64,000 nt of DNA. Source: Nocardia abscessus NBRC 100374. Its GTDB lineage: Bacteria; Actinomycetota; Actinomycetes; Mycobacteriales; Mycobacteriaceae. The notes beneath the pieces were generated by a model. It had not been told where the DNA came from. It searched no databases and saw only the letters and a list, made by a program, of their open reading frames with translations. Position numbers and translations under genes: made by a program. The stretch covers positions 1-64,000 of the forward strand of contig NZ_BAFP01000001.1 in the NCBI RefSeq assembly GCF_000308455.1, read 5' to 3'. Each line of letters opens with the position of its first letter. Position 1 is the stretch's first letter. This document shows, in pieces, positions 19,085-23,078 of this stretch.

Positions 19085-21022
19085 ATGGACGACGAGCAGA
19101 ACGTGTTGGCCACCGTATGGCCCGAGGTTGTCACCGAGCTGACCACCGGCTCACCCGACGGCGCGATTCCTCCGGTGACCCGAGCACAGCAGGCCTGGCT
19201 GAAGCTGGTCAAGCCGCTGACGGTCGCACAGGGGTTCGCCCTGCTCTCGGTGCCCTCGTCACTGGCCCAGGAGGCCATCGAACGCGATCTGCGCGAGCCC
19301 ATCCTCCGTTCCCTCGCCCGTCGGCTCGGTCCTCAGGTGGAAGGACTCGGTGTCCGCATCGCCGCCCCGACCACCCCGACCGTCGACCGGCAGAGCAACA
19401 CGCCACGGCATGCGCGGATGACGAGCAGGCCCGAGCGCACCAGGGAAGGCCGCGGTCCCGCCGCCTATCCCGGTTCGGAATTCCCCGGCCGGGATGCCTA
19501 CCCGGGGCCGCGTTATGCACAGCCCGCCGACTTCGCACAGGCGTCGCCGTATCACGACGGCTCCGACTACCCGGGCACCGAATACGGCCAGGACTTCGCA
19601 CCGCCGGAGGAGTACCGCCAGTCCGATTACTCCCACGCCGACTACCCGCCGCGCGGCGAGTACTCCACGACGGCCGAGCTGCCGACGGTGTCCGGGCCGG
19701 ACGTCGCCCCCCGCCGCGAACCCGGACTTCCGCCGCGCCGGGAGCCGGCCATCCCGCCGGGGCAGGAGTCTTTGTTCAATCCCGAACCGTCCCCGGGCGG
19801 CATGCGCAATCCGATCCGTGCTCAAGTACGCGAAAACACCGACGACGACACGGGTCTGGCACACGATCCGGTGCGTGAGCCCGTGGGTGACCACCCGCGC
19901 GGCGATCACGACGACGAGCCCGTGGTGAACGTCCGTAACTCCTGGCCGACCTACTTCGCCAAGTCGCAGGAAACGCCTGCTCCTTCGACGTCCTCGGCCA
20001 GCCTGAACGCGAAGTACACCTTCGAGACCTTCGTCATCGGCGCGTCCAATCGCTTCGCCCACGCTGCCGCCGTCGCCATCGCCGAAGCGCCGGCCCGCGC
20101 CTACAACCCGCTGTTCGTCTGGGGCGCTTCGGGGTTGGGCAAGACCCACCTGCTGCACGCGGCGGGCCACTACGCGCAGCGTCTGTTTCCCGGGATGCGG
20201 GTCAAATACGTTTCGACCGAAGAGTTCACCAACGACTTCATCAACAGCCTGCGCGACGACCGCAAGGTGGCGTTCAAGCGCCGCTACCGCGAGACCGACA
20301 TCCTGCTGGTCGACGACATCCAGTTCATCGAGGGCAAGGAAGGCATCCAAGAAGAGTTCTTCCACACCTTCAACACCCTGCACAACGCGAACAAACAGAT
20401 CGTCGTCTCCTCGGACCGTCCGCCCAAGCAGCTGGCCACGCTGGAGGAGCGGCTGCGGACGCGATTCGAGTGGGGTCTGATCACCGACGTGCAGCCGCCG
20501 GAGCTGGAGACGCGCATCGCCATCCTGCGCAAGAAGGCGCGGATGGACCGGCTCGATGTGCCGCACGACGTGCTGGAGCTGATCGCCAGCCGGGTGGAGC
20601 GCAATATCCGGGAGTTGGAGGGCGCGCTGATCCGGGTGACCGCGTTCGCCTCGTTGAACGGTCAGCCCCTGGATCTGCCGCTGGCCGAAGTGGTGTTGCG
20701 CGATCTGATGCCGGACACCGCGACACTGGAGATCAACGCGGCCACCATCATGGCCGTCACGGCGGAGTACTTCAACACCACCTTGGAAGAGCTCACCGGT
20801 CCCGGCAAAGCGCGGCCGCTGGCGCAGGCCAGGCAGATCGCGATGTACCTGTGCCGCGAGCTGACCGATCTGTCCCTGCCGAAGATCGGGCAGGCGTTCG
20901 GTCGCGACCACACCACGGTGATGTACGCGGAGAAGAAGGTGCGCAAGGAGATGACCGAGCGCCGCCGCGTCTACGACCAGGTGCAGGAACTCACAGCCCG
21001 GATCAAGCAGCGCTCCCGCTGA
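19085..21022 (+). CDS. dnaA: Chromosomal replication initiator DnaA
   Basis: 645 residues. Domain I (residues about 1-95: [13 protein letters not shown]...) precedes a very long, Pro/Gly/Tyr/Asp-rich domain II (about 100-295). The AAA+ domain III has Walker [10 protein letters not shown] and Walker [10 protein letters not shown], and domain IV carries the DnaA-box-binding signature [15 protein letters not shown]. The long linker explains the size compared with about 507 residues in M. tuberculosis. GGGGAGG seven bases before ATG 19085 fixes the start. An intrinsic terminator follows the stop within 20 bp, so dnaN is transcribed separately. Confidence 0.97.
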
Positions 21023-21039
21023 GCTCTATACACACCTGA

Positions 21040-21071
21040 GCACCGCCCCTGACCTGGGGCGGTGCTTTTTT
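21040..21071 (+). terminator. Rho-independent terminator of dnaA
   Basis: A 10-bp stem GCACCGCCCC / GGGGCGGTGC (21040-21049, 21056-21065) with a 6-base loop is followed by six T residues. Confidence 0.93.
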
Positions 21072-21077
21072 GTGGCC

Positions 21078-21120
21078 TGTGGATTCCTCGAGGAATCCTT
21101 GTGGAGTCCTCGAGGAATCC
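21078..21120. repeat. oriC palindrome repeat pair 1
   Basis: Two 21-base units start with TGTGGA and are spaced 22 bp apart (21078 and 21100). The first contains the perfect 18-bp palindrome GGATTCCTCGAGGAATCC; the second differs at one base of it. Each starts with a DnaA-box-like TGTGGA core. Confidence 0.9.
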
Positions 21121-21253
21121 ACTGGTTTGTCCACCGATTCGTGCACAGGCTGGGGCGATGGCCCCCGCTAGTTCCCCCACAGGCCGAATTCAACAGTTTC
21201 CCCAGGCTCGATTGCGCACAGGCGCTGACCAGCGAAGTGTCCGGATCAGACCC

Positions 21254-21301
21254 TGTGGATTCCTCGAGGAGTCCATGTGGAGTCCTCGAGGAATCCTCGA
21301 G
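21254..21301. repeat. oriC palindrome repeat pair 2
   Basis: Two units again 22 bp apart (21254 and 21276) with the same TGTGGA plus CTCGAG design, followed 11 bp on by a further CTCGAG (21296-21301). The pair starts exactly 176 bp (8 x 22) after pair 1. Confidence 0.9.
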
Positions 21302-21480
21302 CTATCCACGATTTCGTGCACATATGTGAACAACCGGGTGAATCCGGTGGAACAACTCGAGGACTGCTCGAGGATGAATCTGGGACAACCTGGGAACTCC
21401 ACAGACGCCTCGTGTTCATCCTCGAGACACCCCGTAGCCATCCCCACGGCACCACGCCGCCTGACCAGCGGATTCGGCCG

Positions 21481-21514
21481 CAGTCCACAGAATCCACAGT
21501 GCCTACTACTACTT
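21481..21514 (+). other. Candidate basal unwinding element (DnaA boxes plus DnaA-trios)
   Basis: Two abutting 9-mers CAGTCCACA and GAATCCACA (21481-21498) are followed by a 4-base spacer (GTGC) and then CTA-CTA-CTA-CTT (21503-21514). On the other strand this reads 3'-GAT-GAT-GAT-GAA-5', the DnaA-trio pattern described for Bacillus subtilis oriC. A+T-richer DNA follows. Confidence 0.65.
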
Positions 21515-21902
21515 CAGTTCTTCTCATTAGAGATCTCTCTTCAAAACAGGGTGTGTGGAAAGTCGGTCGAGCAGCGCACCTTCGGAGCCGGCCGGGTTTC
21601 CCGCAAGGACGACAGCGCGGACGGAACACGGACTCATCGATCCGACGGGCGATCGAGGTACGCGATCCGCCTCGGCACGGCGCGTGCGCGATCCCCACGT
21701 GGCTGCCCTCTCGTCCCTGCTCCGCACGCGCCGTCCGTACCGCCGGAGGGTCGGGCTAGGTGCGCGTGCCCCGCGCGGGTACGGTTTGATGTCGGTCGCC
21801 TGTGCCAGACTGCGAAGGCGGCCGATTCGGCAGGACCCTTTCGAGCACCGACACTGACGAGCCGACAACAGATCACGGAACCGGGAGAGGACAGATCGGG
21901 CC

Positions 21903-23078
21903 ATGGAGCTTGCAAGCATGAAGTTTCGGGTCGCCCGCGAGGATTTCGCCGAGTCCGTCGCCTGGGTGGCGCGCAGTCTTCCGTCCCGGCCTCCGGTTCC
22001 GGTACTCGGCGGTGTACTGCTGGTCGCCGACGAGGACGGTCTCACCGTGTCCGGCTTCGACTACGAGGTCTCCGCGCAGGTGCGGGTCGCGGCCGAGGTC
22101 GCGGGCCCCGGCCAGGTGCTCGTCTCCGGTCGTCTGCTGGCCGACATCACCAAGGCGCTGTCCAACAAACCGGTCGACGTCTCGGTGGACGGCACCCGCG
22201 TCCTGATCGCCTGTGGCAGTGCGAAGTTCTCCCTGCCCACCATGCCGGTCGAGGACTATCCCCAGCTGCCCGAGGTGCCGCAGCAGACCGGTGAACTGAG
22301 TGTGGAGGTCTTCGCCGAGGCGGTCGGCCAGGTCGCCGTTGCCGCGGGCCGGGACGACACCCTCCCCATGCTGACCGGTATCCGGGTGGAGATCGAGGGA
22401 TCGCAGGTCGTTCTCGCGGCGACCGACCGGTTCCGCCTCGCCGTCCGGCACATCGAATGGCAGCCCGCCCGCGCCGACATCGAGACTTCGGTGCTCATCC
22501 CGGCCAGGACGCTGTCGGAGGCCGCCAAGACGCTCGGCCCCTCCGACGCGCCCGTTCAGCTGTCCCTCGGCTCCGGTGCGGGGTCGGACGGACTGCTCGG
22601 CATCGTGAACGCGGGCCGCCGGACCACCACCCGCCTGCTCGACGCGGAATTCCCCAAGTTCCGCCAGTTGCTCCCCAAAGAGCACACCTCGATCGCCACC
22701 CTCGCCGTGGCCGCGCTCACCGAGGCGATCAAGCGCGTCGCGCTGGTCGCCGAGCGAGGCGCCCAGGTGCGGCTGGAGTTCTCCACCGACGGCGTGCTGC
22801 TGTCCGCGGGCGGTGACGACGCGGGGCGGGCCGAGGAGTGGCTGGAGGCCGATTTCCGCGGCGAATCGCTCACCATCGCGTTCAATCCCGGTTACCTCAT
22901 CGACGGCTTGTCCGCGTTGCACGCGGATCGGGTCACCTTCGGATTCACCACACCGAGCAGGCCGGCCGTGCTGCTGCCCGCGTCCGAGGAAGAGCCCGAG
23001 GTGCTCGATTCCGGGACGTTCGCGGCGCTGGCGAGTCCGTACATCTACCTGCTGATGCCGGTCCGGCTCCCGGGCTGA
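21903..23078 (+). CDS. dnaN: DNA polymerase III beta subunit (sliding clamp)
   Basis: 391 residues with the three clamp domains expected of DnaN. It ends LLMPVRLPG, matching the conserved clamp C-terminus that forms part of the partner-binding pocket. It tethers the replicative polymerase to DNA. ATG 21903 ([14 protein letters not shown]) is used; a second ATG at 21921 (MKFRVARED) is equally plausible because the conserved sequence starts there. GGGAGAGGA lies about ten bases upstream of the first ATG. recF follows after 243 bp. Confidence 0.96.

Follow-up and report, generated by a model that had tools for sequence, protein, structure and literature searches.

Phased CTCGAG sites in the dnaA-dnaN interval of Nocardia as probable methyltransferase targets within a ladder of predicted DnaA half-boxes

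How replication is limited to once per cycle in Nocardia and Rhodococcus is, to our knowledge, an open question. The window analysed in this work (the whole stretch of 64,000 nucleotides from Nocardia abscessus NBRC 100374) contains the interval between dnaA and dnaN, and this interval has eight copies of the palindrome CTCGAG. The locus raises the question of what recognises these sites at the expected origin. A preliminary description suggested cooperative binding by a dimeric protein beside DnaA. The features of the locus are as follows.

19085 to 21022, plus strand: dnaA (TIGR00362, 477 bits, cut-off 344)
21023 to 21902, no strand assigned: dnaA-dnaN interval, the expected oriC (from its place between both genes and the aligned relatives)
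21078 to 21098, plus strand: unit 1, TGTGGA half-box and perfect palindrome, CTCGAG at 21087
21100 to 21120, plus strand: unit 2, TGTGGA and palindrome, CTCGAG at 21109
21118 to 21134, plus strand: two TCCAC half-boxes, one in register (21118) and one shifted by a base (21130)
21254 to 21274, plus strand: unit 3, TGTGGA and palindrome, CTCGAG at 21263
21276 to 21296, plus strand: unit 4, TGTGGA and palindrome, CTCGAG at 21285
21296 to 21309, plus strand: CTCGAG at 21296 and TCCAC at 21305, the next two 11-bp steps of the ladder
21347 to 21372, plus strand: GTGGA at 21347, CTCGAG at 21356 and 21367 (11 bp apart), in another phase
21398 to 21426, plus strand: TCCAC at 21398 and CTCGAG at 21421
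21484 to 21513, plus strand: TCCACA, TCCACA and TACTACTACT, a box pair with what we take to be a DnaA-trio-like run (from the sequence)
21903 to 23078, plus strand: dnaN (TIGR00663, 337 bits, cut-off 138)

The eight CTCGAG within 340 bp start at 21087, 21109, 21263, 21285, 21296, 21356, 21367, and 21421, exactly as described previously. The 22- and 11-bp spacings between them are also correct, and the four units that join TGTGGA to an 18-bp palindrome are present, with the palindrome of unit 1 perfect. The block from 21078 to 21426 (349 bp) has eight CTCGAG compared with a mean of 0.19 and a maximum of three in 2000 shuffles. CTCGAG is also the most frequent palindromic hexamer of the dnaA-dnaN interval (eight copies; three for the runner-up), and the window as a whole exhibits no CTCGAG enrichment (32 found, 33.5 expected). 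The four copies of GGANTCCTCGAGGANTCC in the 8.41-Mb genome are all located in the dnaA-dnaN interval; the reversed control gave none, and the 18-bp palindrome was not found elsewhere in this genome. The two main arrays are near copies of each other (96% over 45 bp).

The TGTGGA and TCCAC half-boxes of both main arrays share one 11-bp frame with CTCGAG, which bears out the phasing and the link to DnaA-type half-boxes (themselves predicted) that had been claimed. Counted from the CTCGAG at 21087 as zero, the steps of the ladder are at -11, 0, 11, 22, and 33, and again at 165, 176, 187, 198, 209, and 220. The elements off the ladder are one TCCAC at 45 and a third group at 257 to 334 that has a different phase. 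Neither perfect TTATCCACA nor perfect TTGTCCACA was found within the dnaA-dnaN interval, and the half-boxes are therefore considered as predicted DnaA sites only. The low-affinity DnaA sites of E. coli are 9-mers 2 bp apart, that is 11 bp from centre to centre (PMC6727663). The ladder has this step in common with the E. coli arrays since its sites are located about 11 bp apart in one register. The ladder differs from those arrays in that its slots alternate with a palindromic methyltransferase site and its DnaA sites are predicted.

The DnaN encoded in the window is 99% identical to that of the N. abscessus genome searched. The related origins were collected by a scan for relatives of dnaN, in which 80 matches were listed (65 from Nocardia and 15 from Rhodococcus, Prescottella, and Antrihabitans). 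CTCGAG is present in 65 of the 65 Nocardia intervals among the matches listed, with 3 to 11 copies each and 484 in total. The 22-bp step is exhibited by 56 of these 65 loci, the 11-bp step by 57, and either step by 63, and the repeats and their spacing are thus kept in relatives, which was the check that the preliminary description had proposed. The alignments were built from 57 Nocardia loci, and eight of the 65 with a longer dnaA-dnaN interval were left out. These 57 aligned origins among the matches listed have 443 exact CTCGAG compared with 10.4 in shuffles, and hexamers with one mismatch to CTCGAG are depleted in them (33 compared with 151 expected). The distance between the two 22-bp pairs had been described as exactly 176 bp (8 x 22). 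This does not hold as a strict rule: both pairs are present in 50 of the 57 aligned Nocardia origins, of which 13 have a distance of 176 bp, 22 have 175 bp, and the others range from 153 to 186 bp. The distances cluster in near-11-bp steps (153; 163-164; 174-177; 185-186).

Two observations concern the structure of these loci. The eight longer intervals, those of N. carnea, N. sienata, and their relatives (L037-L043 and L046), are 1.6 to 2.7 kb long compared with less than 1 kb; the extra DNA is located before the oriC block, and the open reading frame list of L042 has no obvious gene there. An oriC-like stretch (78.5% identity over 521 bp) is located at NZ_LN868939.1:705862-706382 (L084). This 2.66-Mb record, which is titled 'Nocardia farcinica NCTC11134 plasmid 2', may therefore be part of the chromosome.

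The slots of array 1 were scored with one base of slack in 51 of the 57 aligned Nocardia species among the matches listed. Slot 1 is occupied by GTGGA in 43 species, CTCGAG in 5, and TCCAC in 2, and is empty in 1. Slot 3 has TCCAC in 20 species and CTCGAG in 6 (25 empty), and slot 4 has TCCAC in 21 and CTCGAG in 10 (20 empty). CTCGAG and half-boxes therefore hold the same 11-bp slots in different species. With zero slack, 147 of the 167 elements in slots 1 to 5 are exactly in phase, 17 are one base off, 3 are two bases off, and none falls in the remaining eight phases. Since the species are related, the slot counts do not represent independent events. Single-step decay is rare among the Nocardia species that lack a site. 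At the partly occupied aligned positions 109, 194, and 273, the other letters mostly resemble a half-box end, with TCC-ACAGG or TCC-ACCGG replacing TCC-TCGAG. At positions 143 and 316, which are also partly occupied, the other letters are unrelated to a half-box end.

The origins of Rhodococcus and Prescottella only partly follow this pattern, as CTCGAG is present but the 18-bp palindrome is not, and the flanks and steps differ. R. qingshengii and Rhodococcus sp. P-2, both related to R. erythropolis, have 9 origin CTCGAG. The unit common across genera is the bare hexamer CTCGAG, which fits a methyltransferase site more closely than a dimeric-repressor operator. The 11-bp steps of CTCGAG occur in six genera and the 22-bp steps in five. 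Among the distinct linkers with steps of at most 36 bp, 142 of 187 (many of them from Nocardia) have steps of 10-12, 21-23, or 31-33 bp. Since 15- and 18-bp steps are found repeatedly as well, the phasing is a strong tendency and not a rule. No half-boxes accompany the 12-bp CTCGAG array of R. tibetensis. L074 (15-bp steps) and L080 (12-bp steps) have tandem runs of six CTCGAG just downstream of dnaA, in which the steps are constant, the linkers otherwise differ, and DnaA half-boxes are absent. Triple CTCGAG clusters located anywhere in the genome were found in 47 of 60 relatives, and that search by itself therefore says little.

A methyltransferase with this specificity has precedent. An orphan methyltransferase that recognises CTCGAG has been reported in Nocardia, together with CTCGAG clusters in the non-coding DNA from dnaA to a polymerase III gene and a strong correlation between the origin cluster and the methyltransferase gene (Blow et al., 2016, PMC4752239, legend of Fig. 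6 and section 15). The CTCGAG cluster as such was thus already known, and the statement in the preliminary description that no factor with this site had been described does not stand. The findings in this work agree with that report in motif, place, genus, and the correlation of cluster and gene. However, the gene class, the methylated base, the half-box ladder, and the deamination footprint (see below) are not given in the sections of PMC4752239 that concern CTCGAG, and the word 'Vsr' has no occurrence in its text as available. We have added a candidate gene beside Vsr, a co-occurrence survey, the footprint in N. camponoti, and the shared 11-bp slots. PMC4752239 is the only report linking CTCGAG with an origin in the parts of the open-access literature covered by our search, in which no description of the 11-bp ladder or of the enzyme class was found. 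A CTCGAG restriction-modification system has been reported on a putative plasmid and not at the origin (PMC5644110).

Five methyltransferase families were searched to identify the candidate enzyme. The 11 genomes searched comprised five that have an origin cluster (the genome of the window, N. abscessus, and three others) and six with 0-2 origin CTCGAG. PF00145 (cytosine-5) yielded one orthologous protein in 5 of 5 cluster-bearing genomes, with 75-99% identity to the protein of the genome of the window. The other families were rejected as the CTCGAG methyltransferase: PF01555 is absent in two of the five cluster-bearing genomes, PF02384 in one, and PF02086 in four, and PF07669, which matches in each of the five, does so in frames that range widely in size, from 533 to 1390 aa. 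The gene is located outside the window, in the same genome:

G000:C270:40563-41732, minus strand: candidate methyltransferase of 390 aa (PF00145, TIGR00675)

The protein scores 132.6 bits against TIGR00675 (dcm; cut-off 100.65). The end of its gene overlaps the start of a Vsr endonuclease gene (TIGR00632, 114.1 bits, cut-off 97.85), and Vsr adjoins the methyltransferase in 29 of 30 loci. A Pfam search of ten open reading frames selected from the 18-kb stretch around the methyltransferase revealed no restriction enzyme. This conserved and apparently stand-alone Dcm-type cytosine-5 methyltransferase is the best candidate for CTCGAG methylation, and the CTCGAG sites are very likely its targets. 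From the motif, the taxon, and the co-occurrence, we infer that the enzyme of Blow et al. is the PF00145 gene found here. Related and neighbouring genes were also observed. A second methyltransferase paralogue (51-52% identical) is present in N. wallacei (G103, C219:3361-4491) and Antrihabitans (G069, C1:611800-612909), and second Vsr homologues (41-51% identical) are present in five genomes. About 6 kb from the methyltransferase in the genome of the window, a protein of an anti-phage defence type with ApeA_NTD1 and HEPN_Apea domains is encoded (L128:186-1694, minus strand).

The presence of the enzyme was checked in 50 of the 80 listed genomes (15 of 15 outside Nocardia and 35 of 65 Nocardia), and an ortholog is present in 47 of the 50. 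R. spelaei, Rhodococcus RD6.2, and R. oryzae do not have the enzyme, and their origins have 0, 1, and 0 CTCGAG. Few origin CTCGAG (2, 1, and 1) are found in R. yunnanensis, KRD197, and Antrihabitans even though the enzyme is present. The methyltransferase gene is in three pieces in P. defluvii (L072; G071:C1:326844-328002) and has one stop in N. shimofusensis (L143; G078), where the origins keep 9 and 7 CTCGAG; the broken genes reflect either sequencing error or recent loss.

Across the family, the enzyme was found in 60 of 151 genomes at E<=1e-40 and in 12 of 30 genera. Origins were then surveyed in 80 genomes (42 with and 38 without the enzyme) with the genus of the window excluded, several of them shared with the first set. 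dnaN was found in 79 of the 80 and the 2 kb upstream of it was taken; the counts exclude two genomes with weaker homologues (50 and 64% identity), which have 0 and 1 CTCGAG. At least three origin CTCGAG were found in 28 of 40 non-Nocardia genomes with the enzyme (up to 16 copies) compared with 0 of 37 without it, each of which has at most one. The contrast is also seen within genus g42, where the one enzyme-bearing genome has 10 CTCGAG, mostly in 11-12-bp steps, and the two genomes without the enzyme have none. Fewer than three origin CTCGAG were found in 12 of the 40 enzyme-bearing genomes, namely 6 of 7 from genus g27, all 3 from g36, and the only one from each of g46, g48, and g51. No alternative repeated palindrome stood out in these five genera among the enzyme-bearing genomes free of the cluster. 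Either the enzyme serves other purposes or its role at the origin has been lost in these genomes.

A full-length relative of Vsr is present in 21 of 23 genomes searched. R. oryzae has none, and N. camponoti has only a 41-residue match located elsewhere. In R. spelaei and RD6.2, Vsr is present although the methyltransferase is not. The methyltransferase of N. camponoti has no stop and retains PCQ and ENV. Hexamers were counted in samples of about 400 kb with N. abscessus and N. suismassiliense as Nocardia controls. N. camponoti has 23 CTCGAG compared with 224 CTTGAG/CTCAAG sites, and the corresponding counts are 166 and 68 in N. abscessus, 178 and 68 in N. suismassiliense, and 283 and 132 in RD6.2. 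Of 3545 hexamers, none is as depleted in N. camponoti as CTCGAG, whose observed/expected ratio is 0.17 there compared with 0.68, 0.72, and 0.79 in the other three samples. Relative to the mean of the two Nocardia controls, CTCGAG is shifted to CTTGAG 24.6-fold, the largest such shift among both the 1032 CG pairs and the 3280 C-to-T pairs. The product of the outer C, TTCGAG, is not raised (250 compared with 290 and 309). Unrepaired deamination of CT(5mC)GAG would give such a shift, which strongly suggests that the inner C is the methylated base. Two figures count against this reading: G+C is lower in N. camponoti (65.2% compared with 67.2-68.7%), and RD6.2, where the enzyme is absent, has more CTTGAG/CTCAAG sites than both Nocardia controls. 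The footprint appears to tie enzyme, site, and base together in this one lineage and in samples of about 400 kb. The origin of N. camponoti keeps 4 CTCGAG compared with 0.044 expected, and one CTTGAG/CTCAAG is also located in the interval. These sites are kept against mutation pressure and are therefore very likely held by selection.

These findings resemble two known systems. The arrangement is similar to Dam/SeqA of E. coli in that many methyltransferase sites are located within oriC, and differs in that the mark there is 6mA at GATC and here probably 5mC at CTCGAG. Adenine methylation of GATC is not a feature shared here, as the motif is CTCGAG and PF02086, the Dam family, is absent from the genome of the window and from N. 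abscessus. SeqA needs GATC sites phased by whole turns in vitro, a phasing that the GATCs of E. coli oriC do not themselves show (PMC5145175). The gene pair is similar to Dcm-Vsr of E. coli and ScmA-VsrA of Caulobacter, where a solitary cytosine-5 methyltransferase is accompanied by a Vsr-type endonuclease that repairs 5mC deamination (PMC12907096). The motifs of those systems are CCWGG and YGCCGGCR, whereas co-occurrence and footprint point to CTCGAG here. The terms 'oriC' and 'origin of replication' do not occur in the available text of PMC12907096.

Several other explanations have to be weighed. Chance or a recent local duplication of a 22-bp unit would account for the near identity of the main arrays. 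However, CTCGAG is kept in every one of the Nocardia loci among the matches listed, and the sites in N. camponoti are held against mutation pressure. The preliminary description had named a lack of the repeats in relatives as the sign of chance duplication, and conservation in relatives therefore excludes it on those terms; we give it almost no credence. A dimeric DNA-binding protein other than a methyltransferase, with the palindromes as its operators, was the preferred reading of that description. Palindrome and helical phasing agree with it, and sequestration would likewise require a reader specific to the origin. Nevertheless, the genera have just the hexamer in common, the presence of the cluster tracks the methyltransferase, and a methyltransferase for CTCGAG has been reported (PMC4752239), which makes such a protein very unlikely.

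The CTCGAG units might instead be low-affinity DnaA sites of an 11-bp array in which methylation is incidental. The step equals the 9-mer and 2-bp gap of the E. coli arrays (PMC6727663), and the slots are filled by either TCCAC/GTGGA or CTCGAG. Against this, a palindrome is not required by DnaA, but the hexamer is conserved exactly and seldom occurs with one mismatch. Clusters also accompany the methyltransferase gene in every case (none in the 37 genomes without it), and the array of R. tibetensis has no half-boxes. We consider this reading improbable. Methylated CTCGAG could also serve strand-specific repair, segregation, or transcription of dnaA or dnaN rather than the timing of initiation. 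The enzyme is retained in genomes without the cluster, which speaks for such a role, but CTCGAG is interleaved with DnaA-type half-boxes inside the dnaA-dnaN interval, and this alternative is unlikely.

The reading we favour, with a probability of roughly 0.6, is that the eight CTCGAG are methyltransferase targets set in a predicted DnaA ladder, which would tie DnaA assembly to the methylation of the origin. The 12 enzyme-bearing genomes that have fewer than three origin CTCGAG speak against it, as do the recurrent 15- and 18-bp steps. The gene pair and the C-to-T shift strongly suggest that the enzyme makes CT(5mC)GAG and that Vsr repairs its deamination. The passage of the fork would leave CTCGAG hemimethylated until the enzyme catches up. 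The hemimethylated state could be read on one helical face by a SeqA-like protein or by DnaA itself, and this reading would delay the refilling of the DnaA ladder and limit initiation to once per cycle. Such hemimethylation-timed control of DnaA assembly, similar to Dam/SeqA but with 5-methylcytosine, is the most likely role by analogy, and cooperative reading on one helical face is plausible from the phasing. The slots common to CTCGAG and half-boxes favour a direct effect of methylation on DnaA, whereas the 12-bp array of R. tibetensis favours a separate reader. A more specific version, which we regard as tentative, is a 5mC clock in which CT(5mC)GAG and half-boxes are interchangeable 11-bp rungs, methylation would set the number of DnaA molecules able to assemble, and Vsr would preserve the rungs from mutation.

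If the 5mC clock is true, control similar to Dam/SeqA evolved on a different base, with a different enzyme and a different reader. The mark of Dam and CcrM is 6-methyladenine, and an origin controlled by 5-methylcytosine would, if true, widen the picture based on those two enzymes. N. camponoti, which lacks full-length Vsr, also illustrates how the specificity of a cytosine methyltransferase may be read from sequence alone. The candidate gene, the candidate base, and the fixed ladder make the limit on replication in Nocardia and Rhodococcus directly testable.
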